From Cryptosporangium aurantiacum (GTDB taxonomy: Bacteria > Actinomycetota > Actinomycetes > Mycobacteriales > Cryptosporangiaceae): 64,000 bases of DNA. Within the stretch, counting starts at the first letter, position 1. Each line of letters opens with the position of its first letter. The translations under genes and the position numbers were made by a program. The notes beneath the pieces were generated by a model. The model was given only the letters and a program-made list of their open reading frames with translations, was not told where the DNA came from and ran no database searches. Positions 4,952-60,423 of this stretch are shown piece after piece. Location of the stretch: NCBI RefSeq assembly GCF_900143005.1, contig NZ_FRCS01000003.1, positions 310,001-374,000 of the forward strand. Reading direction: 5' to 3'.

Positions 4952-4967
4952 TAGACGCGACCGTCAG
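4952..4967. promoter_or_regulatory. Weak copy of the 16-bp palindrome (site 1)
   Basis: TAGAC-GCGACC-GTCAG, two mismatches from TTGAC-N6-GTCAA. It lies between the divergent DoxX and crotonase genes, 65 bp before the crotonase ATG. It is the weakest member and is reported because its position fits. Confidence 0.3.
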
Positions 4968-5032
4968 ATTCGCATACCGTACCCTGCTGAGGCGTTCCCT
5001 TGCCGGGGTGCCGGGCACCGGCGAGAGGTGAA

Positions 5033-5800
5033 ATGGTGAGCGACGAAGTACAGGTGGAATACGCCGACGGGGTCGTGGTGGTTACGATCAACCGCCCGCA
5101 GGCCCGCAACGCGGTGAATCAGGCCGTCTCGCGGCAAGTGGCCGACGCTCTCGCGGGACTGGACGCCCGCGACGACCTCACGGTGGGCATCATCACCGGC
5201 GCTGGCGGTACTTTCTGCTCCGGTATGGACCTGAAGGCGTTTCTCGCCGGCGACGACGTCACCGTCCCCGGTAAGGGTCTGGCCGGGCTCACCGAGGCAC
5301 CGCCGCGCAAACCGTTGATCGCGGCCGTCGAGGGCTGGGCCCTGGCCGGTGGCTGTGAGGTCGCCCTGGCCTGCGATCTCATCGTGGCCAGCGAGGAGGC
5401 CAAGTTCGGCATCCCCGAGGTCAAGCGGGGCCTCGTGGCCGGAGCAGGAGGGTTGATCCGGCTCCCCCGTCGTATCCCGGAGGGGATCGCACTGGAACTG
5501 GCGCTGACCGGCGACCCCCTCCTGGCGACCGACGCCCACCGGCTCGGTCTGGTGAACACGCTCACCCCGGCCGGTGGCGCGCTCGCCGGGGCCAAGGCAC
5601 TCGCCGCCCGGATCGCGGCCAACGGTCCGCTGGCCGTGGCGGTCACGAAGCAGATCATCGTTCAGTCGCCGGACTGGACCGCCGAGGACCAGTGGCGGCG
5701 CCAGACCGTTCTGATGGAGCCGGTGTTCTCCTCGGCGGACGCGAAGGAAGGCGCCCTCGCCTTCACCGAGAAGCGCACGCCGGTCTGGACCGGGCGCTGA
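5033..5800 (+). CDS. Enoyl-CoA hydratase/isomerase (crotonase) family protein
   Basis: 255 residues, a normal crotonase length. The oxyanion-hole segment FCSGMDLKAF is near residue 64. GWALAGGCEVALACD near residue 105 and FGIPEVKRGLVAGAGG near 130 retain both glutamates that act as acid/base in classical enoyl-CoA hydratases. Predicted to hydrate trans-2-enoyl-CoA or isomerise the double bond. ATG 5033 is preferred over the upstream TTG at 5000 because GAGAGG lies 5 nt before it. It appears monocistronic, with a weak copy of the window's 16-bp palindrome upstream. Confidence 0.88.
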   Translation: MVSDEVQVEYADGVVVVTINRPQARNAVNQAVSRQVADALAGLDARDDLTVGIITGAGGTFCSGMDLKAFLAGDDVTVPGKGLAGLTEAPPRKPLIAAVEGWALAGGCEVALACDLIVASEEAKFGIPEVKRGLVAGAGGLIRLPRRIPEGIALELALTGDPLLATDAHRLGLVNTLTPAGGALAGAKALAARIAANGPLAVAVTKQIIVQSPDWTAEDQWRRQTVLMEPVFSSADAKEGALAFTEKRTPVWTGR

Positions 5801-5864
5801 AGCCGCACGGCCGTCCGCGGACCGGTGGCACCGCCTGCTCCCGCCGCCGGCGTACGGTCACGAG

Positions 5865-6601
5865 GTGAGTGTCGGAAGCCTGCGCTCGAGCGGGCCGGGC
5901 GCGGGGCCTCTCCCCGGTCCGGTACCGCACGAGCCAGACCTGACGCCGGGCACCATCCGGCGGACGAGCACGGTCGACATGCTGCGCCCCGGCGGCCTGG
6001 GCGACCCGTCGCTGGTGATCGTGGCCGAGGCACGCGACCTGCTTTCCAAACGCGAGCTGCACCGTGCCCGGCTCACGGCCGGCGTCCGGTACGACGCCAC
6101 CCGGGAGCTGACGGCGCTGTCGGCCGAGCCGCCGCGCGAGGGCACGGACGCGCTGCTCGGCCGATCGGGGCCGGCGAACCGGTGCCGCTCCGGTCGGGTC
6201 CGCCCGCGCCGACCGTCGATGGCGCTCCGCTGCCTCCGCTCGGGATGCGGCGCCGTCGCCGGATCGACGTCCGGCCCCGCGTCGGCCAGGTGGACGTCCG
6301 CGCGATGTTCCGAGACACCTACAGCGACCCGGACGGGCTCGAAACCGTACTCCACGAGTACGAACTCTCCGCGCTCCTGGACGTCGATTCCCTCGTAATT
6401 ACGCAGATCGAGGCCGTTCCCCGGGTCCTGCCGGCGCCGGAATGCCCGTGGGCCGCGGCCAGCGCCGGCCGGCTCGTCGGCATCCCGGTCTCCGAACTGC
6501 GCACGAAGGTCGGGCGGGAACTTCGCGGCACCACGACCTGCACCCATCTCAACGACCTGCTCCGGTCGATCACGGACGTCCCGGCTCTCCTCGGCTACTG
6601 A
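5865..6601 (+). pseudogene. DUF2889 family protein, frameshifted with internal deletion
   Basis: The N-terminal half is read from GTG 5865 (TPGTIRRTSTVDMLRPGG, VIVAEARDLL, RELTALSAEPPREG), the C-terminal half in another frame ending at 6601 (GMRRRRRIDVRP, VRAMFRDTYSDPDGLETVLHEYEL, RVLPAPECPWAAASA, CTHLNDLLRSITDVPALL). Both halves match DUF2889 proteins, but the expected central segment between about 6160 and 6200 is missing and the frame changes there. The combined length of about 245 residues is short for the family as I recall it. Most likely a dead gene. DUF2889 has no established biochemical role. Confidence 0.6.
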
Positions 6602-6632
6602 CCCCCCGGCTACTGGGCTCCTCCGGCTACTG
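6592..6632. repeat. Three short direct repeats of CGGCTACTG
   Basis: Copies at 6592-6600, 6607-6615 and 6624-6632. They span the 3' end of the DUF2889 remnant and the 3' end of the convergent dehydrogenase, consistent with small slippage duplications at the gene junction. Confidence 0.5.
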
Positions 6633-11614: not shown

Positions 11615-12967
11615 ATGAGCACATCGGACGTCAGCGCGGCGACGGAGCCAACACGAACCGGCGACACCACCGCCCTGCCAGGACGACGCCGGGCTCCGTA
11701 TCCGGTGAGCCCGATCATCGGACCGGCAGGCAACCGTGCCTGCGCGGAGATGATCTCCGCCGCTCGGATGCTGTTCGCGGAGCGCGGCTACCATGCGACG
11801 AGCACCACCGCGATCGCCGAGGCCACGGGGCGCTCGGACACCGCCTTCTATCAGTATTTCTCCAGCAAGCGCGCTCTTTACCAAATGTTCTTCGAGGAGC
11901 TAGGTCAGGAGCTGCTCGAGCACTTCGACCGCATTCCCGACTTCGGCTCGGACGAATCGGGCCTGGCGACGCTGCGAGGCTGGCTCGCCCAACTAGGCCT
12001 GATCTTCCGCTCGCATTCGGCGGCGTTCCTCGAGTGGCCGTCCCCTGGGATCGACGAGCCGGCCTCCGACAATCCTCAGGAGCCTTACTTCGCGCGCTTC
12101 GTCGCCGCCATGCGGAGCGTCGTGGGAGGCGCGGATCTGGACGGGCTGGAGGTCAGAACGGTAACGCTCGCCACGGCCAGTCTGGTGGCCTACTCGAACG
12201 TGGTTCTCGACACCCGGCACCGAGTGACCGGTCATCTCTTTGATTCGTTCGACGAATTGGACGAGGTGCTGGCCCGCATGATGCACCGGGCGCTCTTCCC
12301 TTCCTCAGTCCCGCCATCAGACGTCGGCGGCGGATCGCAATCCGCAGAGCCGCCTCTCGAGACCGAGGAAACCCTTCTTGGGCTGCGCAAACCTGTCACG
12401 CGTCGCGCGCGGCCCACCATCGACCGAGTGCTGGCCGGCGCGGAGAGCGCCTTCCTCCGCAAGGGGCTCGCCGGTACCAGCGTGAACGAGATCATCGAGG
12501 CCGCCGGCGTCGGACACGGAACCTTCTACACGTACTGGAGCGACCGAACAGCGATCTTCGAGACGATGATGCATCGCGCTGCGACTGCAGTGCGTGCGCA
12601 CCTCGCCGCACTCGTCGAGACCAACAGCCCGGCGGGACTGGAGACGTGGTTGGCCGGTTGGCTCGACGTCGTGGAGCGCCATGGCGCGACACTGCACATC
12701 TGGACCTCGGAGATCGTCGACCTCCCACCGCTTCAACCGCTGGGAGCAGAGATGGACGAGTACCTGTGGGAGGTTGCCGGTCGGCTCCTGGGAGCCAACC
12801 CAGTCCTCCGGCAACTCGACCGTCGGGCTGCCACGGCGGCGCTCTGGGCACTCCTCATGGAGTTCCCCTATTCCGCGTGGCGGCGCAACCCGGTCCTGAC
12901 CCGCGCCGAAGTGCTTCACGCACAACGATGGCTCCTCGGGCGTGGCTATTTGGGGTGGGCCGGCTAG
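11615..12967 (+). CDS. Tandem TetR-TetR fusion regulator
   Basis: 450 residues, about twice the usual TetR length, with two complete units. HTH1 is at about residues 42-90 (TTAIAEATGRSDTAFYQYFSSK), HTH2 at about 266-312 (VNEIIEAAGVGHGTFYTYWSDR). Each is followed by its own helical ligand domain, and a Pro/Ser/Glu-rich linker near 230-250 joins them. Such a protein could act as a built-in dimer. It is divergent from the P450/AveC genes and convergent, with a 4-bp overlap, with the SRPBCC gene. A second fusion of the same architecture is encoded at 15109-16452. Confidence 0.85.
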   Translation: MSTSDVSAATEPTRTGDTTALPGRRRAPYPVSPIIGPAGNRACAEMISAARMLFAERGYHATSTTAIAEATGRSDTAFYQYFSSKRALYQMFFEELGQELLEHFDRIPDFGSDESGLATLRGWLAQLGLIFRSHSAAFLEWPSPGIDEPASDNPQEPYFARFVAAMRSVVGGADLDGLEVRTVTLATASLVAYSNVVLDTRHRVTGHLFDSFDELDEVLARMMHRALFPSSVPPSDVGGGSQSAEPPLETEETLLGLRKPVTRRARPTIDRVLAGAESAFLRKGLAGTSVNEIIEAAGVGHGTFYTYWSDRTAIFETMMHRAATAVRAHLAALVETNSPAGLETWLAGWLDVVERHGATLHIWTSEIVDLPPLQPLGAEMDEYLWEVAGRLLGANPVLRQLDRRAATAALWALLMEFPYSAWRRNPVLTRAEVLHAQRWLLGRGYLGWAG

Positions 12968-13447: not shown

Positions 13448-13463
13448 TTGACGCTTTCGTCAA
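13448..13463. promoter_or_regulatory. 16-bp palindrome, perfect core (site 2)
   Basis: TTGAC-GCTTTC-GTCAA in the divergent SRPBCC/aldehyde dehydrogenase promoter region, 47 bp from the SRPBCC start and 102 bp from the dehydrogenase start. It could control both. Confidence 0.7.
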
Positions 13464-15108: not shown

Positions 15109-16452
15109 TCAGCCGGTCGCCACGGTGCCGTTGAGCAGGCCGCGCCGGAGTACCGCGAGCATCATCTCGACGACCTCGTCGTCGGAGGCGGGACCTCCCT
15201 GCTCCTCCGCCGCTACCGGTAGTCGGTCTAGTACACCCAGGAACACGGCGGCGGCGACGTCGAGGTCGAGCGCGTACGAGCGCTCGACCTGCCGGAGCAA
15301 CCGCAGGCACGCGTCCCGCATGGCCGCATTGGACCGGACCGCCGCATCCAGCAGGTCAGGGTCGGTGAACTTCCCCTCCGACCAGATCTGGATCACTCCG
15401 CGGTAGCGCCGGTGGAACGGCACGAACTCGTGGAGCCAGGCGCGCAGCGCATCGTCGGACCCTGCTTCCAGGTCGACCGCGGCGAGCTTCTCGACCAGTA
15501 CACCGGCCGCAGACGCCGTATCCGCCGAGAGCCGGCGCAGTAGGTCCAGCTTGTCGTCGAAGTACTTGTAGAACGTCGCGCGAGCGAAGCCGGCGGCGGC
15601 AACGAGGTCGTCGACGCCGGTAGCGTGGTAGCCCTTCTCGGCGAGCAAGCGCGTCCCGGCGGCCAGAATCTCGTCGACGGTGGCGGTTGCGCGCCGACTG
15701 AGTGCGGTGGTCGGAGTGCCCGGGCGCGCGGTGGCCGGCGTCGGTACGACCGAGACCGAGGCTCGCCGCCGTCGAGCGGTCCCGTCCGACGGCGGTAGCG
15801 CGGCGAATGCTTCCGGCGGCGTGTCCGGGAACAGCATCAGCTGCATCAGCACCGCGAAGCCGTCGATCGCCTCCTCGACGTCCGGCAGGGGGTCGTAGTG
15901 GCGGTGGCGGAAGAAGTTGAATCGCTGGGTCAGGCTGATCAACGCGAGCGCAGCGTCGTCAACCGCCATGCCCTTCACGTCGCTGGCCGCCAACCGCTCG
16001 GCGATCCGGGCGTTGTACTTGCTGATGTAGCCGACGATCAGGGGGCGCGTACTCGTACCGGGAGCGTCGATGTTCGTCCACTGCACGAAGATCGTGGCGT
16101 ACTTGTCGTACACCCACGCCCACTCGCCGAGCCACCAGTGCAAGTTGTCGAAGCCCTCGGCGGTCGGGCCCAGCGGCCCCAGCCGCCGGACCACTCGTGA
16201 CAACGCCGCTCCGCACTCCTCGAGCAGCTCTACGAAGATCTGTTCCTTGCTCTCGAAGTACTGATAGACCGTCGCCCGGGACGTGGCGGCGCTCTTGGCG
16301 ATACTGTCCACCGAGGTTCCGTGAAACCCTTCGGTCTCGAACAGCCGCAGCGCCGCCTCGACGATCCGGGCCCGAGTCTGGGCACCACGCTGACCGACGA
16401 CCGGGCTCGAAGGCCAGTAGCCGTCTCGGCGCAGAAACTCTCCCTCTGACAT
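15109..16452 (-). CDS. Tandem TetR-TetR fusion regulator
   Basis: 447 residues with two TetR units. HTH1 at about 23-75 (VDSIAKSAATSRATVYQYFESK), HTH2 at about 256-305 (VDDLVAAAGFARATFYKYFDDK), each with its own C-terminal helical domain, joined by a Thr/Ala/Pro-rich linker. It is convergent with the aldehyde dehydrogenase, and with the fusion at 11615 it brackets the SRPBCC/dehydrogenase pair. The start is uncertain: ATG 16452 gives MSEGEFLRRDG with a weak site, while upstream ATGs at 16539 and 16527 are in frame. The pairing suggests a multi-input switch for this segment. Confidence 0.82.
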   Translation of the reverse strand: MSEGEFLRRDGYWPSSPVVGQRGAQTRARIVEAALRLFETEGFHGTSVDSIAKSAATSRATVYQYFESKEQIFVELLEECGAALSRVVRRLGPLGPTAEGFDNLHWWLGEWAWVYDKYATIFVQWTNIDAPGTSTRPLIVGYISKYNARIAERLAASDVKGMAVDDAALALISLTQRFNFFRHRHYDPLPDVEEAIDGFAVLMQLMLFPDTPPEAFAALPPSDGTARRRRASVSVVPTPATARPGTPTTALSRRATATVDEILAAGTRLLAEKGYHATGVDDLVAAAGFARATFYKYFDDKLDLLRRLSADTASAAGVLVEKLAAVDLEAGSDDALRAWLHEFVPFHRRYRGVIQIWSEGKFTDPDLLDAAVRSNAAMRDACLRLLRQVERSYALDLDVAAAVFLGVLDRLPVAAEEQGGPASDDEVVEMMLAVLRRGLLNGTVATG

Positions 16453-16545
16453 CCTGTTCAGGATAACCCGGATCAATCTCCCGGCCGCTGCGGGCACCGG
16501 TGCGCCAGGGGGTGCACTGACACGCATGGCCGAGCGCATCAGTTT

Positions 16546-22391: not shown

Positions 22392-22407
22392 TTGACGAAA
22401 CTGTCAG
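22392..22407. promoter_or_regulatory. 16-bp palindrome, one mismatch (site 3)
   Basis: TTGAC-GAAACT-GTCAG, 15 bp upstream of the acyl-CoA dehydrogenase start at 22377. A bound repressor would cover the promoter or leader of this operon. Confidence 0.6.
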
Positions 22408-22457: not shown

Positions 22458-22473
22458 TCGACACTATTGTCAA
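22458..22473. promoter_or_regulatory. 16-bp palindrome, one mismatch (site 4)
   Basis: TCGAC-ACTATT-GTCAA, 62 bp upstream of the CaiB-type CoA-transferase. With site 3 it gives each arm of this divergent region its own copy. Confidence 0.55.
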
Positions 22474-23759: not shown

Positions 23760-23775
23760 TTGACCTAGTTGTCAA
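23760..23775. promoter_or_regulatory. 16-bp palindrome, perfect core (site 5)
   Basis: TTGAC-CTAGTT-GTCAA, 53 bp upstream of the TetR gene at 23829. This is the position expected for autoregulation and links this regulator to the motif family. Confidence 0.7.
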
Positions 23776-27383: not shown

Positions 27384-27823
27384 CGGCTTCCCCTCGCTGA
27401 GCCGCTTCCGGCCGGGCGGAAGAGCGGGAGCCAGAGATCGTCCCATTGCTCGAAGAACACCGCGACCTCCAGCCCGACCTTCGCGTCGTCCAGCGGCAGG
27501 TCGACCACGTTGCTCACGACCCGCACGTCCGGCTCCTCAGCGATCTCGACCATCGCGACCAGATAGGGCGGCGGAAACGTCGGAATCCAGGGCTGCCGAT
27601 TGACGGTGAACGCGGCGATCCGTCCCCGGCCGGATACCGGCTCGGGGCCTACGTCGAGGCTCCGGCAGCGAAAGCACGCCGGTGCCGGTGGATGAAACCA
27701 GTGTCGACAGGATCGACAGCGGTAGATCAGCAGGTGGCCCTGCTCGCCGCCGGTCCAGAAAGCGCGGGATTCCGTGGTGGGGACGGGCAGCAGGCGCTGC
27801 TCCGGACGGGCATAGGGAAGCAC
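27380..27823 (-). CDS. Zn-ribbon OB-fold (DUF35) protein, aldolase/thiolase partner
   Basis: 147 residues. The zinc ribbon is intact: C-x2-C-x10-C-x2-C in CRSCRHWFHPPAPACFRC near residue 35. An OB-fold follows (GRGRIAAFTVNRQ, PPYLVAMVEIAEEP, GLEVAVFFEQ). GTG 27823 is chosen for the GGAGG 6 nt upstream; the longer frame to 27979 crosses the palindrome. It is first in the operon with the Ltp2-like thiolase and the ligase. DUF35 proteins bind acyl-CoA and complete the active site of partner aldolases. Confidence 0.85.
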   Translation of the reverse strand: MLPYARPEQRLLPVPTTESRAFWTGGEQGHLLIYRCRSCRHWFHPPAPACFRCRSLDVGPEPVSGRGRIAAFTVNRQPWIPTFPPPYLVAMVEIAEEPDVRVVSNVVDLPLDDAKVGLEVAVFFEQWDDLWLPLFRPAGSGSARGSR

Positions 27824-27881: not shown

Positions 27882-27897
27882 TTGACGTAATCGTCAA
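27882..27897. promoter_or_regulatory. 16-bp palindrome, perfect core (site 6)
   Basis: TTGAC-GTAATC-GTCAA, 58 bp upstream of the DUF35-thiolase-ligase operon and just beyond the 3' end of the amidohydrolase gene at 27900. Confidence 0.7.
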
Positions 27898-29111: not shown

Positions 29112-29151
29112 GGGTACTGCCCTCCGCTGCCTAGCATCAGTTCGGAACGAC

Positions 29152-29174
29152 CTGTCAGTTGACAGTACCGTCAG
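29152..29174. promoter_or_regulatory. 16-bp palindrome with extra half-site (site 7)
   Basis: The main site is TTGAC-AGTACC-GTCAG at 29159-29174, 48 bp upstream of the amidohydrolase start. It overlaps a second dyad, CTGTCA-GT-TGACAG (29152-29165), so three half-sites are stacked. Two regulators or two dimers may compete here. Confidence 0.55.
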
Positions 29175-29224
29175 ATAAGGGCGCGCGGAAGCTGCTTCAC
29201 CTAGGTTGATCACTGGTTGGGGCT

Positions 29225-29240
29225 CTGACAAGATCGTCAT
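29225..29240. promoter_or_regulatory. 16-bp palindrome, two mismatches (site 8)
   Basis: CTGAC-AAGATC-GTCAT, 37 bp upstream of the TTG start at 29277. It is the plus-strand partner of site 7 in this divergent region. Confidence 0.4.
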
Positions 29241-35520: not shown

Positions 35521-35536
35521 TTGACAGTTTCGTCAA
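35521..35536. promoter_or_regulatory. 16-bp palindrome, perfect core (site 9)
   Basis: TTGAC-AGTTTC-GTCAA in the divergent region between the SDR/Rieske operon (79 bp away) and the seven-gene operon (117 bp away). One bound dimer could control eleven genes. Confidence 0.72.
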
Positions 35537-49766: not shown

Positions 49767-50659
49767 ACCGGCAGTACCGGCCGCCGCACCGCCGACCGCG
49801 GACGCTCCACCAGCTCCACGACGGCGCCGTCCGGATCGGCGAGGAACAGCACGGTGAATCCCCCGGTCGGTATGTCGGGCATCGGGATGAACACCGGCTC
49901 GGGAACGCCGTCGGTCCGCTCGGCCAGGACCGCGTGCGCCGCCCGGACGTCGTCGACGGCGAGCGCGATCCGGTAGAGGCCCTGGGTGTTCGCGGCCCGG
50001 TCGGTCTGCGGCGCGGCCGGGTGCTCGGTGAGTTCCAGGGAGAACGTCGGATCCTCAGGCAGCGCCACCGACGCCGTACCCGCGCCGGTGGCGCCGACCA
50101 CGAACCCGATCCCCTCGTACCAGCCGGTTGCCCGGGCCAGGTCCGTGCAGTACACCCGCAGGTGGGAGAGGGCCGCCGTGGAGTCGTCGGCGTCGGCGAC
50201 CTCGACGATCTCGACCGTCACGCCGTCCGGGTCGACCGTCCGCAGCGCGGACCGGAGCGAGCCACGCACGGGTACCGGGGGCACCTCGTCGACCGCGGCC
50301 CCCGCTGAGCGCAGCCGGTCCCCTGCCGCCGGCAGCGAGTTCACCCGAAAGCCCACGGCGACGAAGCCTCGCGGCGCGGTCTCGGCCGGCACCGTGGCCG
50401 GACGTTCCCAGCCGACCAGCTCCAGGGCCGGGGCCGCGCGCGGCCCCCGGTGGTCCCAGAGAAACGCAGTGGTGCTGGCCGTGTCGGGGCCGAGCCCCAT
50501 CGGGGTGCCGTCCGTGCTCACGCTGATCGACCGCATCCGCGCCCGCAAACCCAGCGCCTCGGTGTAGAACGCCTCGGCCGCGGCGAGGTCGACCGTGTTG
50601 AGGTTGCAGTGCAGTGCCGCGTGGGCCAGCACGACCTCGGTGGTCGTCGGAGTGCTCAT
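49763..50659 (-). CDS. VOC family protein, two glyoxalase-like domains
   Basis: 298 residues with two vicinal-oxygen-chelate units. Unit 1 starts at HAALHCNLNTVDLAAAEAFYTEALGL, unit 2 at ALSHLRVYCTDLARATGWYEGIGF near 165. Each ends with a typical metal/beta-strand segment: DPDGVTVEIVEV and LADPDGAVVELVE, whose Glu residues would bind metal. Family members are glyoxalases, extradiol dioxygenases or epimerases such as methylmalonyl-CoA epimerase. Overlaps the SDR gene upstream by 4 nt. Role in the pathway not determined. Confidence 0.8.
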   Translation of the reverse strand: MSTPTTTEVVLAHAALHCNLNTVDLAAAEAFYTEALGLRARMRSISVSTDGTPMGLGPDTASTTAFLWDHRGPRAAPALELVGWERPATVPAETAPRGFVAVGFRVNSLPAAGDRLRSAGAAVDEVPPVPVRGSLRSALRTVDPDGVTVEIVEVADADDSTAALSHLRVYCTDLARATGWYEGIGFVVGATGAGTASVALPEDPTFSLELTEHPAAPQTDRAANTQGLYRIALAVDDVRAAHAVLAERTDGVPEPVFIPMPDIPTGGFTVLFLADPDGAVVELVERPRSAVRRPVLPV

Positions 50660-51501
50660 CGTCCTGCCTCCTCAGGGAGAAAGAAGCTCGGCTGCAGCTG
50701 GCTCTCGTCGTCGCTCAGGCTGTACCGCGCGAGGTCGACGCCCTCCGCGCCGAGCACCTCGGCGTCCGTCACCAGGCGGCCGGTGTATTCGCGCGGGTCG
50801 CGGCGGACGATGGCCAGCGCCGCGTCGGACATCACCTCGACCCGACGGGCCTGCCGTCCGGCGACCTCCTCGCCGAGCATCACCCGGATGCCTTCGGTGG
50901 CCACGGCGGTGCTCGGCCAGAGCGAGTTCGCGGCGATCCCGGCGTCTCGCAGCTCGGCGGCCAGACCGAGGGTCATCAGGCTGACCGCGTATTTCGACGC
51001 GGTGTAGGCCAGGTGAGCGCCCGTCCAGCGCGGATCGAGCGTGAGCGGTGGGGAGATCGAGAGGACGTGCGCGGCCGGTGACTTCTCCAAGTGCGGCAAC
51101 GCGGTGCGGCTGACCAGGAAACTGCCCCGCGCGTTGACCGCCTGCAGCAGGTCGTAGCGCTTCATCGTGATCCGGCTGGTGGGGGTGGTGTCGAACGCGG
51201 CCGCGTTGTTCACCACCAGATCGAGACCGCCGAACGTCGCCACCGTCTCGGCGACCGCTCGCTCCACGTCCTCGTCGCGGCGCAAATCACCGACGACCGG
51301 CAACACGTGCCCGCCGGCCTGCTCGATCTGCCCGGCGACGCTGAACACCGTGCCCGGGATTCGTGCCTTCGGCTGCGCCGTCGTGGCCAGCAGCGCCACG
51401 TTCGCGCCCTCGGCGGCGAACCGGAGAGCGATCGCGGCTCCGATTCCCCGGCTCGCGCCGGTGACCAGAGCAGTTCGCCCGGCCAGTGTGCCCTCAACCA
51501 T
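50656..51501 (-). CDS. SDR family oxidoreductase, HSDL2-like
   Basis: 281 residues. GRTALVTGASRGIGAAIALRFAAEGANVALLAT is the cofactor site. NNAAAF near 103 stands for NNAG, and SISPPLTLDPRWTGAHLAYTASKYAVSLM near 145-175 contains Ser and Tyr-x3-Lys. The PPL...W..HLAYT.SKY segment is typical of HSDL2-like dehydrogenases. ATG 51501 has GGGAG upstream; a TTG at 51531 is also in frame but overlaps the site-10 region. First gene of the seven-gene minus-strand operon, with a palindrome 35 bp before the start. Confidence 0.86.
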   Translation of the reverse strand: MVEGTLAGRTALVTGASRGIGAAIALRFAAEGANVALLATTAQPKARIPGTVFSVAGQIEQAGGHVLPVVGDLRRDEDVERAVAETVATFGGLDLVVNNAAAFDTTPTSRITMKRYDLLQAVNARGSFLVSRTALPHLEKSPAAHVLSISPPLTLDPRWTGAHLAYTASKYAVSLMTLGLAAELRDAGIAANSLWPSTAVATEGIRVMLGEEVAGRQARRVEVMSDAALAIVRRDPREYTGRLVTDAEVLGAEGVDLARYSLSDDESQLQPSFFLPEEAGR

Positions 51502-51535: not shown

Positions 51536-51551
51536 TTGACGAAAGTGTCAG
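51536..51551. promoter_or_regulatory. 16-bp palindrome, one mismatch (site 10)
   Basis: TTGAC-GAAAGT-GTCAG, 35 bp upstream of the SDR that begins the seven-gene minus-strand operon (51501 to 44762). Confidence 0.65.
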
Positions 51552-51603: not shown

Positions 51604-51619
51604 TTGACAGTGCAGTCAG
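51604..51619. promoter_or_regulatory. 16-bp palindrome, one mismatch (site 11)
   Basis: TTGAC-AGTGCA-GTCAG, about 87 bp upstream of the predicted start of TetR twin B. The arrangement mirrors site 5 and twin A. Confidence 0.6.
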
Positions 51620-51705: not shown

Positions 51706-52347
51706 TTGGAGGGCACGATCAACGAGTCAGTCACCACCGTCGACGCGACGCCGGACACCCCGGAACCCCTCGGGGAACGAGCAGTCCGAACGCGCACCGC
51801 GATCCTGGAGGCAACCCGGACGCTCTTCCTCGAGCGGGGCTACGGCGGAACCCGGATCAACAACATCACCGACGCCTGCGGCATCTCCCGAGCCGGCTTC
51901 TACACCTACTTCCGCGGCAAGCGTGAAGTCTTCACGGTCCTGGGCGAGCAGTCGTTCCGGGACATCATCCACGTGGTCACCGAGCTTGATCAGCTGCCGC
52001 AGCCGATCGAGTCCATCGACCTCGCCGGCTGGGTCCGGCGCTACTTCGCCTTCATGGACGTCCACGGTGCGTTCATCCTGTCCTCGGCCCAATCAGCGCC
52101 GGAGGACGAGGAGTTCCGCGCCGGCTCGGCCCGGCTCCAGATGCGTACCGCGTGGATCGTCGGCATGAGCCTGCGCAACCGGCAACGCGTACCGACCGAC
52201 ACGCCGGAGACGCTGGGACTCGCTGTCCTCGCGATGCTCGACCGCTCCTGGTACTACTGCCGCGGGCAGAAACTGCCCGTCGACGAACGCGACCTGATCC
52301 GCACCGTGGCGATGACGATCCGCAGCGTGCTGGACCATGCCGCCTAG
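51706..52347 (+). CDS. TetR family regulator, twin B (candidate palindrome-binding regulator)
   Basis: 213 residues from TTG 51706. This start is chosen because the protein then begins LEGTIN, matching VEGTID of twin A at 23829; the upstream TTG at 51604 lies inside a palindrome. HTH: ATRTLFLERGYGGTRINNI and TDACGISRAGFYTYFRGKRE, differing from twin A at only a few positions and not in the recognition helix. The C-terminal domain is also very similar (FMDVHGAFILSSAQSAPEDEEFR). Both twins should therefore bind the same operators, while small ligand-domain changes may give them different inducers. Convergent with MaoC; the stops overlap. Confidence 0.84.
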   Translation: MEGTINESVTTVDATPDTPEPLGERAVRTRTAILEATRTLFLERGYGGTRINNITDACGISRAGFYTYFRGKREVFTVLGEQSFRDIIHVVTELDQLPQPIESIDLAGWVRRYFAFMDVHGAFILSSAQSAPEDEEFRAGSARLQMRTAWIVGMSLRNRQRVPTDTPETLGLAVLAMLDRSWYYCRGQKLPVDERDLIRTVAMTIRSVLDHAA

Positions 52348-52808
52348 GCCGGATCGTAGTAGTACCGGCTCACCAGGTCGGCCACGCAGGCCGGCTTGCT
52401 CCCACCCTCGACCTCGATGACCGTGCGCAACACCATCTGGACCGTCGTATCGTCGACCTGCTCCAGCTCGGCCATCGTCGTGCGCGCGCGGATCCGGCTG
52501 CCGACGCGCACCGGCGACGGGAACCGCACCCGGTTGAGCCCGTAGTTGACGCCCATCCGGACGCCTTCCACCCGGCGGAGCTGGTTGACGAAGAACGGCA
52601 CCAGCGAGACCGTCAGGAACCCGTGCGCCACGGTGGCGCCGAACGGCCCGGCCGCGCCCCGCTCCGGATCCACGTGGATCCACTGATGGTCCTCGGTGAC
52701 GTCAGCGAAACCGTCCACGCGCGACTGGCCGACCAGGAACCAGTCGGTGGGACCCAACTCGCGACCGACCGCCTTCTCCAGCTCCGCGACGCTCCGAAAG
52801 ATCTCCAT
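52344..52808 (-). CDS. MaoC family (R)-specific hydratase
   Basis: 154 residues, a single hot-dog domain. FADVTEDHQWIHVDPERGAAGPFGATVAHGFLTVSLVP near 35-70 holds the catalytic Asp-His pair of R-hydratases and the AGPFG...HG signature. NYGLNRVRFPSPVRVGSRIRAR near 90 is the second conserved block. Predicted to hydrate enoyl-CoA. It is monocistronic behind site 12, divergent from the ligase remnant at 52962. Confidence 0.87.
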   Translation of the reverse strand: MEIFRSVAELEKAVGRELGPTDWFLVGQSRVDGFADVTEDHQWIHVDPERGAAGPFGATVAHGFLTVSLVPFFVNQLRRVEGVRMGVNYGLNRVRFPSPVRVGSRIRARTTMAELEQVDDTTVQMVLRTVIEVEGGSKPACVADLVSRYYYDPA

Positions 52809-52844: not shown

Positions 52845-52860
52845 GTGACATGAGCGTCAA
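52845..52860. promoter_or_regulatory. 16-bp palindrome, one mismatch (site 12)
   Basis: GTGAC-ATGAGC-GTCAA, 36 bp upstream of the MaoC gene. Confidence 0.55.
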
Positions 52861-52922: not shown

Positions 52923-52938
52923 TTGACACCGATGTCAT
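52923..52938. promoter_or_regulatory. 16-bp palindrome, one mismatch (site 13)
   Basis: TTGAC-ACCGAT-GTCAT, 23 bp upstream of where the ligase remnant begins. It seems to be a surviving operator in front of a dead gene. Confidence 0.5.
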
Positions 52939-52961: not shown

Positions 52962-53495
52962 GGTAACCGCGGTCTGCGTGACCGCGCCGCGTCCGTGGCG
53001 ACCGCGCTGGCCGATCTCGGCCTACGCCGCCAGGACCGGATCGCGGTGCTGGGCACGAACAGCCTGGAGTTCGCCGAGGTCCCCGCGGCGGGACAGATGC
53101 GCACCGGCAGCACCGACCGGGTGCTGCTGTGCGTGCCCCTCTTCTATCTCGTCGACCGGAAGAAAGACGTGATCGTCTCCGGAGGAGAGAACGTCTACTC
53201 CCAGCAGGTCGAGGACGCCGTCATCACGCATCCCGCCGTCGGCGCGTGCGCGGTGATCGGAGTTCCGGACGAGCGCTGGGGCGAGGCCGTGTGTGTCGTC
53301 GTGGTCCCCACCGGAGCCGGCGAGGTGACCCTCGCGGGGCTGCAGGAACACGTCCGCGTCCAACTCGCTCGGCACAAGGCGCCCCGGGCGCTGCACGTGG
53401 TCGACGCGTTGCCGACGCTGCCCACCGGCAAGGTCGACAAGAAGCGGCTCCGGACGCTGTTCGCGTCCGGAGCCGCTTCGAGCCCCGCTCCGTAG
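52962..53495 (+). pseudogene. Acyl-CoA synthetase remnant with large internal deletions
   Basis: One frame of about 170 residues joins pieces of an AMP-dependent ligase that are normally far apart. The N-terminal piece is LRDRAASVATALADLGLRRQ and DRIAVLGTNSLEFAEV; then a short middle fragment STDRVLLCVPLFYL; then directly the C-terminal domain VDRKKDVIVSGGENVYSQQVEDAV to LPTGKVDKKRL. The ATP-binding TSGTTG and TGE segments are gone. The frame is kept, and a GTG at 52995 could start a short protein, but it could not be a working ligase. Probably a decaying paralogue of 40958-42463. Confidence 0.7.
53442..53478. terminator. Strong hairpin at the 3' end of the ligase remnant
   Basis: Perfect 16-bp arms (53442-53457 with 53463-53478) and 5-nt loop TGTTC, lying inside the last codons before the TAG at 53493. 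A good terminator candidate between the remnant and the convergent minus-strand genes. Confidence 0.6.
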
Positions 53496-53602: not shown

Positions 53603-54238
53603 TCACTCGCTGCCCGCGCGTCCGGGCGTAGCAGGTCCTAGCGGCCGGATCTCCGGCGTGGCGCGCCACGACTGGAGTAACTCGTCGGTGGTAGTGATCC
53701 GAGCGAGCATCCGCATCGTGTTGGCCAGGACCGCTTCCCCGTACTCGGCCGGCGTCCCGGCGACCGCGTCACGCGGGACGACCACGGTGAACCCCTCGTG
53801 CCCCGCCTCCGCCGCAGCCATCGGCAGTGCCAGGTTGAGCGATACTCCGGCCAGCACGATCGTGCCGATGCCGAGGTCACGCAGGATCGGCAGCAACTCG
53901 GTCCGCCAGGTCGGGGAAAGCCCGTGCCGGCGGGGCAGCACGAGATCGTCGGGGTGGCTCAACTGGGGCAGCACCGCCGTTGCAGGGTGATCGGGTGTCC
54001 AGCCGGCGGTCCGCTCCGCCAACCGGCGCCAGATCGGGGCCGTGCTCACCGGTGTGCCGAGCAGGCCGCCGAACGTGGCGTGGACGACCTGGATCCCCGC
54101 CGTACGGGCACCGTCGACCAAGCGCGCGATGTTCTTGATCAGCGGTGCCGCGTCCGCGCCGAGCGCGGGCAGGACGGAGCGCTCGCCGAGCACTCCGTCC
54201 TGGCACTCCACGCAAACGACTGCGGTGTTGACCGCCAC
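53603..54238 (-). CDS. Isochorismatase-like cysteine-hydrolase family protein without the cysteine
   Basis: 211 residues. VVCVECQDGVLGERS near residue 8 gives the catalytic Asp; VLPRRHGLSP near 100 has Arg-Arg at the usual catalytic Lys position; and GTIVLAGVSLNLALPMAAAEA near 130 reads Ala where the family nucleophile Cys stands (GVxTNxCV). Two of three catalytic residues are therefore changed, so this is probably not a standard amidohydrolase of the family. GTG 54238 overlaps the TAG of the amidohydrolase upstream by one base, so the two are co-translated. Confidence 0.75.
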   Translation of the reverse strand: MAVNTAVVCVECQDGVLGERSVLPALGADAAPLIKNIARLVDGARTAGIQVVHATFGGLLGTPVSTAPIWRRLAERTAGWTPDHPATAVLPQLSHPDDLVLPRRHGLSPTWRTELLPILRDLGIGTIVLAGVSLNLALPMAAAEAGHEGFTVVVPRDAVAGTPAEYGEAVLANTMRMLARITTTDELLQSWRATPEIRPLGPATPGRAGSE

Positions 54239-55404
54239 TACCGGGGGAACCGGAGCATCGTCCGCGCGTTGGTCTCCGTGATCTTGGTGACCTCGTCGTC
54301 GGGAACGTCGGCCAGCACCTCGGCCGCCCGCTTCCGGCTGTTGGGCCAGTTGGAGTCCGAGTGCGGGTAGTCGATCTCCAGCATGATCCGGTCGATGCCG
54401 ACCTTGTGCCGATTCTCCACACCGAACTCGTCGTCGATGAAGCAGCCCCAGAAGTGCTTACGGAACAGGTCCGAGGGGCGTGTATCGAAGTCGATGGGCT
54501 GGTAGTAACGGTGCCGCTCCCAGACGAAGTCGGCCCGCTCGATGATGTAGGGAATCCAGCCGATGCCGCCCTCCGCCAGCGAGAACTGCAGCTTGGGGTG
54601 GCGCTGCAGGACACCGGAGAACAGCAAGTCCGCGGCGCTCCACATCAGGTTGGTAGAGAAGATCGTGATCGCGACCGCGAACGGCGCGTCCGGCAGCACG
54701 ACCTCGCCGGGGATCGCACGGGTCGCCGCGAACGAGAACCCGGGCACGTAGGAGCCCGAACCGAAGTGCAGCGAGAGAACCGTCCCGGTCTCCTCGCAGG
54801 CATTCCAGAGCGGCTCCCAGTGCTCATTGTGGAAGCTCGGCAGGCCGAGCGGCACGGGGCTGTCGGGGAAGGAGATCGTCCGCGCGCCCATCGCGGCCGT
54901 ACGGCGGATCTCCGCGGCGGCCAGCTCCGGGTCCCAGGTCGGCACGATCGCCAGCGGGATGAAGCGGTCCGGCGCGGTCCCACACCATTCCTCGATGTGG
55001 AAGTCGTTCCACGCCTGGAGGCAGAGCAGTGCCAGGTCCTTGTCCTGCGCGCGCTGGAAGACGCCTCCGCCGAACCCGGGGAAGGAGGGGAAGCACAACG
55101 CGGCCTGGATGCCGTCCAGATCCATGTCCTTGACCCGGGCCGCCGGGTCGTAACAGCCGGGAATCATGTCCTCGTAGCGGACCGGGTCCAGCGCCCACTC
55201 CTCCGGTGGCTTCCCTGCGACGGCGTTCAGGCCGACGGTCGGGTAGACCACGCCGTCGTAGTGCCACACGTGCTTGCCGCTGGCCTCCACGATGCGCGGG
55301 CCACGCTCGCGAAGCGCGGCGGGTAACCGGTCCTGCCAGACCCGAGGGTGCTCGATCAAGTGGTCGTCGACCGAAACGATCTGATGGTGGTCCTGCAGTG
55401 GCAT
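54238..55404 (-). CDS. Amidohydrolase family protein (amidohydrolase_2)
   Basis: 388 residues. IVSVDDHLIEHPRVWQDRLP at the N-terminus supplies metal ligands, AALCFPSFPGFGGGVF near 105 and LSLHFGSGSYVPGF near 205 the barrel core, and DRIMLEIDYPHSDSNWPNSR near 340 the C-terminal aspartate (D-Y-P-H-S-D). Close in type to the amidohydrolase at 27900-29111; both may act on related carbonyl or enol intermediates. Two palindromes (55453 and 55576) lie upstream. Operon with the isochorismatase-like gene. Confidence 0.86.
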   Translation of the reverse strand: MPLQDHHQIVSVDDHLIEHPRVWQDRLPAALRERGPRIVEASGKHVWHYDGVVYPTVGLNAVAGKPPEEWALDPVRYEDMIPGCYDPAARVKDMDLDGIQAALCFPSFPGFGGGVFQRAQDKDLALLCLQAWNDFHIEEWCGTAPDRFIPLAIVPTWDPELAAAEIRRTAAMGARTISFPDSPVPLGLPSFHNEHWEPLWNACEETGTVLSLHFGSGSYVPGFSFAATRAIPGEVVLPDAPFAVAITIFSTNLMWSAADLLFSGVLQRHPKLQFSLAEGGIGWIPYIIERADFVWERHRYYQPIDFDTRPSDLFRKHFWGCFIDDEFGVENRHKVGIDRIMLEIDYPHSDSNWPNSRKRAAEVLADVPDDEVTKITETNARTMLRFPR

Positions 55405-55452: not shown

Positions 55453-55468
55453 TTGACGGTTTCGTTAA
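55453..55468. promoter_or_regulatory. 16-bp palindrome, one mismatch (site 14)
   Basis: TTGAC-GGTTTC-GTTAA, 48 bp upstream of the amidohydrolase start at 55404. Confidence 0.55.
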
Positions 55469-55575: not shown

Positions 55576-55591
55576 CTGACGAGGAAGTCAA
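55576..55591. promoter_or_regulatory. 16-bp palindrome, one mismatch (site 15)
   Basis: CTGAC-GAGGAA-GTCAA, overlapping the stop codon of the upstream TetR gene and 123 bp from site 14. It may be a second binding position for the amidohydrolase promoter. Confidence 0.45.
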
Positions 55592-56202
55592 CCGGGAGTC
55601 GTCGGCCGCCACGCCAAGGCGTGCAGAGTCACGGCGATCAATCCGCTCTTCATCTCCGGCACACCGCCGGGCTGCGTGTGCGGGGCGTACGTGCTGCGCC
55701 CGAAAATGGCACTGACGAACACCTCCGCGACGAGAGCCGGCGAATCGCCGGACCGCACCTCGCCACGCGCGCGGGCGTCGACCAGAGCGCCCTCGATCAC
55801 CGCCATGCTCTGATCGATAACGTCCCGCTTGAACGCCGCGTAGAGCACCGGATAGGACGCGAGCTCGGCCGCGCAGCGCGCCAACACGGACCGGCGCGGC
55901 TCGGCGAGCATGTCGGCGATCTGGTCGAACAACATCTCGAGGTCGCCGGAGAGCGTGCCGGTGCGGGGCGGCTCCAGGCCGACCGAGAGCGACGCTAGAC
56001 CGGCTGCGACGAGGCCCTCGCGGTCGGGCCAGCGGCTGTAGATGCTGCGCTTCGCGACCCGGGCCCGCGCCGCGACCGAGTTCAGACTGAAAGCCGCGAC
56101 ACCCACCTCGGCCAGCTCGTCGACCGCGGCTCGGACGATGCGGTCCTCCACGTCCGGGTCGCGCGGCCGCCCACGCGCACCACTGCCCGAGGACGCCGCC
56201 AT
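55588..56202 (-). CDS. TetR family transcriptional regulator
   Basis: 204 residues. HTH at about 12-60: DRIVRAAVDELAEVGVAAFSLNSVAARARVAKRSIYSRWPDRE. The recognition segment VAKRSIYSRW belongs to a TetR subgroup different from twins A and B. The C-terminal domain has FDQIADMLAEPRRSVLARCAAEL. ATG 56202 is preferred for the family-typical MAASSGSGARGRPRDPDVE; an ATG-type start at 56235 is possible. Divergent from the SDR at 56312 with a 13-bp-arm dyad between them. Confidence 0.83.
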   Translation of the reverse strand: MAASSGSGARGRPRDPDVEDRIVRAAVDELAEVGVAAFSLNSVAARARVAKRSIYSRWPDREGLVAAGLASLSVGLEPPRTGTLSGDLEMLFDQIADMLAEPRRSVLARCAAELASYPVLYAAFKRDVIDQSMAVIEGALVDARARGEVRSGDSPALVAEVFVSAIFGRSTYAPHTQPGGVPEMKSGLIAVTLHALAWRPTTPG

Positions 56203-56261
56203 GCGCCCAGGATATCGCCACCGGTCCGGTTGCATAAATGCGTGACACGGAGTTATCGTCT

Positions 56262-57125: not shown

Positions 57126-57737
57126 GTGTCGACCGACCCACGCCCTGCCCGGACCAAGAGCCGCCTCGCCGAGGCGGCTCTTGCGCTCTGCGCGGAGACC
57201 GGCCGCACGCCGTCGGTGAGCGCGATCGTCAGCCGCGCCGGCACCAGCCGCTCGATCTTCTACGTGCACTTCGAGAGTGCGGATGAACTGCTCCTCAGCA
57301 CGCTGGATGACGCTTTGGCAGGGATCGTCAGCTTCGATCTCCTCGCCCGGGACAGCGGGCTCGAATCGCACGGAGCGGCCGCGGAATTGAGCCTCGATGC
57401 GCTGCTCAGCCACCTGGAGAGCCAGCCCGTGCTGTACCGGATGGTGTTCGGACCGGACTCGACCTCTCTGCGGATCCGATTCGGCGACATCCTGGCCCGG
57501 CATCTGCGACCCGGCTTCTCCAGCCGCGGAAGGGTCGCCCTGGAAGCCCCCGCTGTCCGCGACGCCATCGCCCACGCGGTCGCCCACGGGATGGCCGCAC
57601 TGATCGGCAAATGGGTGTGTGGCGACACGCCCTTCGACCGTCCCGAACTCGTCCGGGCGCTCCTGACGCTCTTCCCCAACTGGACCCGGTCGTTCGGTAC
57701 CGAAGTCCTGCTCTCCGAGGAAAGAAGAATGCCGTGA
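57126..57737 (+). CDS. TetR family transcriptional regulator
   Basis: 203 residues from GTG 57126. HTH at about 10-55: SRLAEAALALCAETGRTPSVSAIVSRAGTSRSIFYVHFESAD. The C-terminal domain includes LESQPVLYRMVFGPDSTSLRIRFGDILARHL. It overlaps the SDR gene downstream by GTGA, so regulator and enzyme form one operon and probably sense the SDR substrate. A 13-bp-arm hairpin lies inside its codons 11-19. Confidence 0.83.
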   Translation: MSTDPRPARTKSRLAEAALALCAETGRTPSVSAIVSRAGTSRSIFYVHFESADELLLSTLDDALAGIVSFDLLARDSGLESHGAAAELSLDALLSHLESQPVLYRMVFGPDSTSLRIRFGDILARHLRPGFSSRGRVALEAPAVRDAIAHAVAHGMAALIGKWVCGDTPFDRPELVRALLTLFPNWTRSFGTEVLLSEERRMP

Positions 57738-58492: not shown

Positions 58493-58504
58493 CGGCGGAG
58501 ACCG

Positions 58505-59320
58505 CTACTGCTCGACCCGGAACAGCGCCTCCTGGGCCAGACTCGCGACCAAAGCTCCCCCGGCGTCCCAGAATTGCCCGCTGTACCACCCGCGGCCGCG
58601 CCCGACGGTGCGCGGCCGGAGATCCACGAGCAGCCAATCGTCGGCCCGAGCCCGCCGGTGGAACCACACCGCGTGGTCGATGCTCGCGCCGACCTGGGCG
58701 AGTCCCAGGACGACGGCGCCCAGACCGCTGGACGCGTCGGAGACATAGGTGATCGCGGCCGCATGCCACAGCGGGTCAACGGGGAGCGGACTCGACACGC
58801 GAACCCAGATCCGGGTGGGCCAGAGCGCGTCGGGATACGGCTGCGGCGGTAGACGGGCGTGGACCAGGTGCAACGCGGGAAGCAGCGGCACCGGCAAACC
58901 GTCCGGGGGCGGCACGGTCGGCGCCTCCTCGCGCTGCTCGTCGATCGCGTCGTCAGCCGGACGCCCGAACGACACCGCGGTGCTGAAGATGACGCGGTCT
59001 CCCTGCCGGGCGACGACCCGCCGGGCGGAGAACATGCGTCCGTCATGGTCGCGGGCGACCTCGAACACCACCGGCACCGCCGCGTCCCCTTCGCGGAGAA
59101 AGTATCCGTGCAACGAGTGGGCTACCCGCCCATCCGGCACGGTGCCGCCGGCGGCCAGCAGCGCCTGGGCCGCGACCTGCCCGCCGTACAACCGGTAGTC
59201 CTGGTCGAAGAGCACGACACTGCGGTAGACGTCGTCGTCGAGCCGCTCCAGCCGGAGCAGCTCGGCGAGGCTGGACGCGGGTGCGTCGGCGAGTCCGGAC
59301 TCCAGCGGCCGGCCGCTCAC
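58505..59320 (-). CDS. Acyl-CoA thioesterase II (TesB) family protein
   Basis: 271 residues, a double hot-dog. RLYGGQVAAQALLAAGGTVPDGRVAHSLHGYFLREGD near 40-80 is the N-terminal TesB block (GGQ...H..H..F...G). IDHAVWFHRRARADDWLLVDLRPRTVGRGRGWYSGQFWDAGGALVASLAQEALFR at the C-terminus is the second. Hydrolyses acyl-CoA to free acid and CoA. It starts 4 nt inside the LLM oxidoreductase gene, forming an operon with it behind site 16. Confidence 0.88.
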   Translation of the reverse strand: MSGRPLESGLADAPASSLAELLRLERLDDDVYRSVVLFDQDYRLYGGQVAAQALLAAGGTVPDGRVAHSLHGYFLREGDAAVPVVFEVARDHDGRMFSARRVVARQGDRVIFSTAVSFGRPADDAIDEQREEAPTVPPPDGLPVPLLPALHLVHARLPPQPYPDALWPTRIWVRVSSPLPVDPLWHAAAITYVSDASSGLGAVVLGLAQVGASIDHAVWFHRRARADDWLLVDLRPRTVGRGRGWYSGQFWDAGGALVASLAQEALFRVEQ

Positions 59321-60291
59321 GGCGCGTTCCCGGGCTCGCCCGGAGTGGCGTCACGGCCGGGCGGGGCCCCGGCTCCAGCGACGGCCGGGGTGCGGCTCCC
59401 GAGCGCCTCGCCGTAGCGGACCACCTCACGCAGGCACTCCGCCGCCGACCGGGCGTGCGACTCGATCGACACCCAGGTGGCGCCGGCCGCCCGATACGCC
59501 GGGAGCGCCGAGGACAGCTGGTCGATGGTGCGCTCCACGTCCCGGCGGGTCGCCGGCGAGTAGCACACGTCCACGTCCGGCGAACGGCCCGCCGCCACAC
59601 GCGCGGCCTTCAGCGTCCGCACCCGCTCCGCGAATTCGTCGACGGCCAGCGTGGGGGTGCCGGTGACCGCCGCAGCCGCCGCCGACTGCTCGAACGGCAG
59701 CCATCCGTCACCGAGCGCCGCCACCCGACGGAGGGCGGCCTTGCTGTTCCCACCGATCCAGATCGGTGGGCCGGGGCGCTGCGCCGGCCTCGGCAGCATC
59801 ACATGGTCGTCGGCCGGGTAGTGCGGGCCTTCGCGGTGTACGGGCTCACCGCTCCAGGCCGCGCGCATCGCGGCGATCGCCGCGTCGAACCGGGGGCCGC
59901 GGTCCGAGAACGAGGCGTCGAGCACGCCGAACTCCGCCTCCTGGTACCCCGCTCCCATCCCGACGACCAGGCGGCCGCCGGAGAGCAGGTCGAGGCTGGC
60001 CGTCGCTTTGGCGGTCAGGTAGGGGCTCCGGTAGCCGGCGACAAGCACGAACGTCATCAAGCGGATCCGCCGGGTGGCCGCGGCCATGAACGACAGCGCG
60101 ACGAACGGGTCGAACGCGTGGTGGCCACCGTTCGCGAGCCAATCCCGCGCCGGGAACGGATGGTCGGTCGTGGAGATCATGTCGATCCCGGCTTCCTCGG
60201 CCGCGACCGCGATTTCGGCCAGGCTGTGCGGCCCGGCCCAGCTCTCCCAGTGCTTCACGGCCCGGGTCGGGAACTGAAAACTCAGCCTCAT
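59317..60291 (-). CDS. LLM class (F420-dependent) oxidoreductase
   Basis: 324 residues of the luciferase-like TIM-barrel family. AEIAVAAEEAGIDMISTTDHPFPARDW near 25-50, AAATRRIRLMTFVLVAGYRSPYLTAKATASLDLLSGGRLVVGMGAGYQEAEF near 70-120 and PIWIGGNSKAALRRVAALGDGWLP near 175 are the standard cofactor-binding blocks. TASLDLLSGGRL is typical of F420-dependent members in actinomycetes. Overlaps the thioesterase gene downstream. Substrate unknown. Confidence 0.86.
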   Translation of the reverse strand: MRLSFQFPTRAVKHWESWAGPHSLAEIAVAAEEAGIDMISTTDHPFPARDWLANGGHHAFDPFVALSFMAAATRRIRLMTFVLVAGYRSPYLTAKATASLDLLSGGRLVVGMGAGYQEAEFGVLDASFSDRGPRFDAAIAAMRAAWSGEPVHREGPHYPADDHVMLPRPAQRPGPPIWIGGNSKAALRRVAALGDGWLPFEQSAAAAAVTGTPTLAVDEFAERVRTLKAARVAAGRSPDVDVCYSPATRRDVERTIDQLSSALPAYRAAGATWVSIESHARSAAECLREVVRYGEALGSRTPAVAGAGAPPGRDATPGEPGNAP

Positions 60292-60407
60292 GCTGCTCCT
60301 GTGCTCCGGTCATGTCTCCGACGGGAGCGTCAGCTATGACGAAGACCGACCGCATCCTCTTACCGCCAGATCGCCAACGCCAGCGACGACAGTCATCCGA
60401 TAAGGAT

Positions 60408-60423
60408 TTGACGCAACTGTCAA
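60408..60423. promoter_or_regulatory. 16-bp palindrome, perfect core (site 16)
   Basis: TTGAC-GCAACT-GTCAA, 117 bp upstream of the LLM oxidoreductase/thioesterase operon and 332 bp before the PKD hydrolase. It also overlaps the stop codon of the remnant at 60420-60575. Confidence 0.65.

Follow-up and report, generated by a model that had tools for sequence, protein, structure and literature searches.

A TTGAC-N6-GTCAA palindrome as the candidate operator of a TetR-regulated catabolic regulon in Cryptosporangium aurantiacum

In Mycobacterium, the cholesterol regulon is controlled by KstR, a TetR repressor that also regulates its own gene and whose operator, TnnAACnnGTTnnA, partly overlaps the -10 box (PMC1995591). 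EdcR of Caenibius is an estrogen-dependent TetR repressor whose operator, TnnCnnTACnAnTnGTAnnGnnA, lies over the -10 box (PMC8700777). We analyzed a 64,000-nucleotide stretch of the Cryptosporangium aurantiacum genome (9.58 Mb, 44 contigs), here called the window, which corresponds to C3:310001-374000 (C3, contig NZ_FRCS01000003.1; positions so marked are contig coordinates and all others are window positions) and carries sixteen copies of a 16-bp palindrome, TTGAC-R-N4-Y-GTCAA. Sequence comparisons suggest, with a probability of roughly 85%, that this palindrome serves as the operator for a self-regulating TetR repressor (T1, with its paralogs T2 and T3) of a coenzyme A (CoA)-thioester catabolic pathway.

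Like KstR (PMC1995591), the proposed system has a short palindrome in many, often divergent, lipid-catabolic promoters, and the operator overlaps the core promoter. Like EdcR (PMC8700777), it would be a TetR repressor of a catabolic cluster (a steroid cluster for EdcR) whose palindromic operator sits in the core promoter. The placement differs, since TnnAACnnGTTnnA and TnnCnnTACnAnTnGTAnnGnnA lie wholly or partly over the -10 box (PMC1995591 and PMC8700777, respectively) whereas TTGAC-N6-GTCAA would overlap the -35 box or the spacer. As the sequence-only reading had claimed, the motif is also distinct from that of KstR: the base frequencies of 90 sites, themselves picked by a matrix of that form, give TTGAC-R-N4-Y-GTCAA, against TnnAACnnGTTnnA in PMC1995591. 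Neither T1 nor T2 had the KstR model NF033703 among its listed NCBIfam families at E 0.001. The regulon appears to be of an ordinary kind, a TetR operator regulon like that of KstR, yet apparently undescribed; in the open-licence literature (titles and abstract starts) we recognised no description of the motif or the regulator. The proposed regulators, two in the window and one in a paralogous second island on the same contig, are as follows.

T1, 23829-24512, + strand: single-domain TetR, the proposed motif-binding repressor
T2, 51706-52347, + strand: single-domain TetR, 73% identical to T1; start set by the T1 alignment
T3, C3:551873-552559: single TetR of the second island, 86% identical to T1

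Genes T1, T2 and T3 begin 53, 86 and 81 bp downstream of a site, respectively. All sixteen palindromes reported from the sequence alone were present at their positions, and the earlier tally of the ten-base core was reproduced exactly, with no mismatch in five, one in nine and two in two (4952 and 29225). The R and Y positions are obeyed by 13 of the 16 but violated at 23760 (C at position 6) and at 51604 and 55576 (A at position 11). The claim that the sites lie near gene starts stands for 15, found ~13-120 bp ahead of a likely start chosen from the called frames, but not for 55576, which adjoins none. With at most one mismatch, the full pattern has 12 copies in the window where 0.15 are expected, and none of 100 shuffles got as far as 12, in line with the earlier estimate that the motif is far above chance. 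Cores with up to two mismatches occupy 29 places, the sixteen listed below and 13 more, among which only that at 56559 has a single mismatch. The sites are listed here with their neighboring genes and any TANNNT hexamer that follows.

4952..4967: weakest site, two core mismatches, upstream of an enoyl-CoA hydratase gene; membership doubtful
13448..13463: perfect, between an SRPBCC/polyketide-cyclase gene (likely start 13401, - strand) and an aldehyde dehydrogenase gene (+ strand); TACGTT 7 bp after, rightwards
22392..22407: operator candidate, 14 bp before an acyl-CoA dehydrogenase gene, 21214-22377 (- strand)
22458..22473: operator candidate, paired with 22392, before a CaiB-type CoA-transferase gene, 22535-23749 (+ strand); same pair at C3:550381/550449
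23760..23775: perfect core, 53 bp ahead of the T1 gene (23829-24512); counterpart at C3:551776, before T3
27882..27897: perfect, before leftward genes for an OB-fold protein (ChsH2_C-like, 27380-27823), a thiolase (26196-27383) and a CoA ligase; TAGGGT 8 bp after; counterpart at C3:556357
29159..29174: operator candidate, before an amidohydrolase gene (likely start 29111, - strand)
29225..29240: weaker, paired with 29159, before a rightward frame, 29277-29591; second-island pair at C3:557640/557707
35521..35536: perfect, between an SDR gene (likely start 35442, - strand) and an enoyl-CoA hydratase gene (+ strand); TAGGGT 7 bp after, leftwards; counterpart at C3:535992
51536..51551: operator candidate, before an SDR gene, 50656-51501 (- strand), followed by VOC, acyl-CoA dehydrogenase and thiolase genes
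51604..51619: asymmetric, paired with 51536, 86 bp before the TetR gene T2
52845..52860: operator candidate, before a MaoC dehydratase gene, 52344-52808 (- strand); TAGAGT 7 bp after; the second-island MaoC gene is without a counterpart site
52923..52938: operator candidate, before a shortened CoA-ligase frame, 52995-53495 (+ strand)
55453..55468: operator candidate, before amidohydrolase (54238-55404) and isochorismatase-type hydrolase genes (- strand); TACCGT 7 bp after; counterpart at C3:560606
55576..55591: weak, partner of 55453 at a distance of 123 bp; pair matched at C3:560606/560729
60408..60423: perfect, before a tannase/PKD protein gene, 60437-62830 (+ strand); the second-island homolog is without a site scoring at least 9

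Site 4952 has the lowest matrix score of the sixteen (9.2) and may not be part of the regulon; a similar sequence precedes a 91% identical hydratase paralog at C3:456265, beyond the second island. Site 55576 is probably a leftover operator: its second-island match precedes a patatin-like gene, and no patatin-like gene was found at that place in the window. Behind the SDR gene that adjoins site 35521 lie OB-fold, thiolase and Rieske genes. The CoA-ligase frame at 52995-53495 (166 amino acids), which has an operator pair in front of it, matches only the AMP-binding C-terminal domain and looks internally shortened. The ligase at 29597-31080 runs in two overlapping frames (29597-29800 and 29782-31080), its 79% identical paralog at C3:392243 being a single frame, and is possibly frame-shifted.

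To place these sites against the background, a position matrix trained on 12 window sites was run over 460 kb of C3 together with 400 kb from three further contigs, ~9% of the genome (796 kb plus the window), and pattern searches covered all 9.58 Mb. At a score of at least 18 there were 17 sites in the two islands, none in the other 368 kb of C3 and none in the 400 kb elsewhere. The scan proposed by the sequence-only reading, carried out on this fraction, thus confined the strong sites to the islands, and the equal density elsewhere that would have spoken against its motif was not seen in these 768 kb. We take the single site of this strength within a called frame to be 27882; that frame is over-extended, and its gene probably starts at 27823. 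At a score of at least 14, the counts were 21 in the islands, 6 in the other 368 kb of C3 and 3 in the three contigs. The exact full pattern occurs nine times genome-wide, four in the window, three at C3:536-556 kb and two elsewhere (by their translations, one inside a beta-lactamase-like frame and one before a MerR-like frame), and allowing one mismatch gives 71 places, as against 31 when the pattern is reversed. The gap between the half-sites was also exact. TTGAC-N6-GTCAA occurs at 8 places (16 counts over both strands) in the islands and 57 (114) in loci of relatives but at none in the 768 kb of background, despite 660 TTGAC there, and at other gaps from 0 to 14 the both-strand counts were 0 in the islands, 2 in the relatives (gap 3) and, in the background, 2 at gap 7 and 2 at gap 10. 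The shuffles, the background scan and the gap test rule out an origin of the motif by chance or coding bias. Scattered CTGAC-R-N4-Y-GTCA[CT] palindromes (C3:457394, C3:460470 and C3:518943; scores 13.8-16.4) lie beyond the islands and are maybe sites of a related regulator.

The earlier reading had seen one catabolic island. An island-wide regulatory role of the palindrome is supported, but the regulon would span two duplicated islands, the second at C3:524-567 kb (L031-L033), ~150 kb from the first. Many genes there are 66-95% identical to those of the window, though identity falls to 50-53% for the Rieske gene and one hypothetical protein. Nine of the 16 sites have a second-island counterpart (22392, 22458, 23760, 27882, 29159, 29225, 35521, 55453 and 55576), and the pair spacings in the window and the second island are 66 and 68 bp (acyl-CoA dehydrogenase/CoA-transferase), 66 and 67 bp (amidohydrolase) and 123 and 123 bp (second amidohydrolase).

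We scanned a species-genome collection with an alignment of T1-T3 and obtained 56 loci, of which 38, all actinobacterial, were kept and 18 distant ones (L074-L091, Bacillota by record names) were set aside. Thirty of the 38 carry a site scoring at least 14 within 500 bp upstream of the match start. Over all 38 loci (693 kb), sites scoring at least 14, 17 and 20 numbered 138, 106 and 78, whereas 20 column-permuted matrices gave means of 9.35, 0.85 and 0.05 (maxima 55, 3 and 1). A gene start lies within -200 to +350 bp of 109 of the 130 sites in relatives, by rough gene calls. The regulator occurs in Frankia, Pseudonocardia, Nocardia, Williamsia, Gordonia, Janibacter, Nocardioides and other genera; Caenibius, the host of EdcR, is not an actinobacterium. 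On plasmids, a single TetR ortholog was met, carried by a plasmid of Mycobacterium branderi on which the amidohydrolase is also present (77% identity; under 60% on 22 others), and enoyl-CoA hydratase matches, under 60%, on 5.

The link between regulator and site was also found in 296 Actinomycetes genomes. The TetR is present in 9 of these, the A/T-centred exact pattern in 36 and the reversed pattern in 13, none of them among the 9. Exact sites occur in 8 of the 9 genomes with the TetR and in 28 of the 287 without it (Fisher p 1.9e-7), and three or more in 7 of 9 against 2 of 287 (Fisher p 3.5e-11); these p-values are optimistic, given the relatedness of the genomes and the inclusion of the window's own genome in the 9. 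Within one family of 26 genomes, six of the seven with the TetR have 3-4 sites each, and none of the 19 without it has any. Together, the background, spacing, paralogous-island and cross-genome tests support the earlier view of the palindrome as an island-wide regulatory element.

Promoter geometry was assessed on 90 distinct sites scoring at least 17 (124 before near-copies were removed), that is, in 180 orientations. The hexamer TANNNT begins 7 bp after the palindrome in 21 cases, 8 bp after in 18 and 1 bp after in 20, and no other offset from 0 to 49 exceeds 3. It lies at +6 to +9 on one side in 41 of the 90 sites, and on both sides in none. In the window, 6 of the 16 sites (4952, 13448, 27882, 35521, 52845 and 55453) have it at +7 or +8, each time facing the gene. 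At these offsets the far half of the palindrome would be the -35 box with a 17-18 bp spacer. With the hexamer at +1, the spacer would be taken up by the palindrome, unless the hexamer belongs to a longer operator. In the mechanism we propose, a TetR dimer would bind the two half-sites of the palindrome around its A/T-rich centre, with one operator half often serving as the -35 box or the operator occupying the spacer before the -10, so that bound repressor should block RNA polymerase and exclude it from the promoter. The repressor would be released by an intermediate of the pathway, most likely an acyl-CoA, which would switch on the TetR gene itself and the divergent catabolic operons of both islands. 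We infer an acyl-CoA ligand because the gene set and the structural relatives EthR, FasR and DesT suggest one, and we presume cross-talk among the three paralogs.

The earlier reading had counted two TetRs, which does not hold, as the window contains at least six TetR-family genes, two of them tandem double TetRs and another the TetR 57126-57737. Its 'twin TetRs' would most simply be T1 (23829-24512) and T2 (51706-52347), and by comparison across genomes this pair, with the third paralog T3, are the probable regulators. T1 and T2 have the TetR_N helix-turn-helix (PF00440; 1.7e-13 for T1 and 5.7e-13 for T2), the AlphaFold2 model is an all-helical TetR fold (mean pLDDT 82), and the best Foldseek matches are TetR-type regulators, including EthR, FasR and DesT, at 13-18% identity. 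The likeness to these three is in the fold, and by their titles the FasR and DesT structures were solved with acyl-CoA. Their regulons and operators differ from those here. Another comparison is RutR of E. coli, a pyrimidine-utilisation regulator with the operator TTGACCA-NN-TGGTCAA, a sequence our literature search did not confirm; taken as such, it shares the half-sites TTGAC/GTCAA and the six-base gap, and differs in its centre, CA-NN-TG as against A/T-rich here. T1 scored 23.1 bits against the RutR model TIGR03613, far below the curated cut-off of 368.

Other TetRs of the window compete with T1, although we consider it improbable that the motif is bound by a double TetR, 11615-12967 (+ strand, 450 amino acids) or 15109-16539 (- strand, 476 amino acids), each with two TetR_N matches, or by the single TetR 55588-56235. 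They sit in the same island, and the 3' end of 55588-56235 touches site 55576. Co-occurrence was compared for 11615-12967 and 55588-56235. In the 296 genomes, the former tracks the sites nearly as well as T1 does (sites in 7 of the 9 genomes that carry it, compared with 8 of 9 for T1), but one genome (G156) has 3 sites without it and two (G104 and G246) have it without sites; of the 20 genomes with the latter, 14 have no site. We also examined the genomes, 25 in all, to which 27 of the 38 loci lead; the 11 loci left out include 7 of the 8 without a good upstream site, and L067 was assigned no genome. Exact sites are present in 24 of the 25 (54 sites against 5 for a control pattern), and the 14 that lack the double TetR 11615-12967 at E 1e-30 all have them. 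Since the choice of the 27 loci favours sites, this result bears on the double TetR and not on T1. Both TetRs are disfavoured, but 11615-12967 is a close rival against which only a few genomes of the unselected set speak. A tandem double-TetR architecture is that of Mycobacterium Mce3R, a 406-amino-acid chain of which was met in the solved-structure search; further double-TetR homologs lie at C3:457526 and C3:485675, and no shared motif was evident when the double-TetR upstream regions were compared by eye.

That the sites are ordinary sigma-70 -35 boxes (TTGACA) with accidental palindromy is very improbable. TTGAC does match the core of the -35 consensus, and hexamers resembling -10 boxes follow at 17-18 bp spacing. 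A promoter needs no GTCAA six bases on, however, and this arrangement was seen at 8 island places and at 57 in relatives as against none in 768 kb of background. A GTCAA at a gap of exactly six indicates that the site is more than a mere -35 box, so plain -35 boxes are ruled out as the sole cause, while the overlap of operator and -35 box remains true. We regard it as unlikely that the TetR is an activator or a mixed regulator, although NCBIfam calls FasR an activator (a weak match to T1, 26.7 bits against the NF053731 cut-off of 330) and the paired sites, 66-123 bp apart, could accommodate two dimers. Where a -10-like box is visible, however, the -35 box or the spacer lies under the operator, and a dimer bound there should block the polymerase.

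Several observations weigh against T1 and its paralogs as autoregulated repressors acting through this palindrome. In the promoters, 10 of the 16 window sites have no TANNNT at +7 or +8, and T at position 17 in 54% of sites means that the +1 hexamer may extend the operator instead of being a -10 box. Seven sites (4952, 13448, 51536, 51604, 52845, 52923 and 60408) have no second-island counterpart. The structural matches are moderate (TM about 0.45-0.65) and compatible with TetRs of many ligands. The matrix used on the relatives derives from the 12 window sites, and the orthologs were retrieved through conserved helix-turn-helix peptides, so that the identity of their recognition helices holds by construction. 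Eight of the 38 orthologs have no good upstream site: six (L042, L044, L050, L051, L052 and L064) have degenerate sites scoring 10.8-12.6, and L040 and L041 have none (2.4 and 7.7). Among the 130 sites in relatives, 17 have no start nearby and fall within called frames, and another 4 are neither in a frame nor close to a start. The nine TetR genomes are not independent, seven coming from one family, and one of them (G264) has no exact site, its TetR belonging to the L040/L042 branch. Four other genomes of the window's family, three of the same genus and one of another, lack the TetR at E 1e-20, so a gain here or a loss in those genomes is possible.

On the tree, whose labels were set by hand (L042 is marked 'none' despite its score of 12.6), L040 and L042 form a Protofrankia/Frankia branch, L044, L050, L051 and L052 a Frankia branch, and L064 stands beside a site-bearing row. 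In the Frankia branch of four, the upstream sites are only CTGACGYGTCCGTCA[CG]-like and the recognition helix is unchanged, a possible natural case of operator drift.

The genes adjoining the 130 sites in relatives were assigned to families by homology to the window, with adjacency taken as -200 to +350 bp, one plasmid locus and three second-island loci included and some labels at 26-40% identity. TetR accounted for 34 site-gene pairs, the amidohydrolase 27900-29240 for 30, the enoyl-CoA hydratase 35521-36453 for 19, the isochorismatase-type hydrolase for 11, the OB-fold protein at 27380 for 9, the acyl-CoA dehydrogenase 21214-22377 for 8 and the KshA-like Rieske oxygenase for 7; 29 further pairs had no window homolog. 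Among 17 loci compared, that of Marmoricola has the order amidohydrolase, TetR, ligase, MaoC, thiolase, OB-fold, thiolase, OB-fold, SDR, site, hydratase; Janibacter has a similar order with one more SDR and an amidohydrolase of merely 37% identity, and parts recur elsewhere. The pathway genes thus include two thiolase/OB-fold pairs, several acyl-CoA dehydrogenases and the amidohydrolase, and Pfam finds steroid-like parts, a KshA_C Rieske protein and a ChsH2-type OB-fold. Because thiolase and ChsH2-type OB-fold pairs and a KshA-like oxygenase are present, our guess is that the substrate could be a steroid, a terpenoid or another compound with a ring or branches. An NCBIfam scan of 20 proteins reached no cut-off among the families listed, and solved-structure searches with the TetR profile, the VOC protein and the amidohydrolase named no pathway.

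We lean towards regarding this TetR as a new actinobacterial catabolic regulator of a CoA-dependent pathway, with three repressors, one operator and two islands switched together; if three related repressors do share one operator, the two pathway copies would respond as one. It is likely that one protein switches a whole degradation pathway. The operator and its regulator would then mark which genes form one pathway and so delimit a degradation pathway in various actinobacteria. They would also offer a handle, through a de-repressed mutant or a reporter, for finding the substrate and the inducer, and the repressor-operator pair may be of use for expression in actinobacteria.

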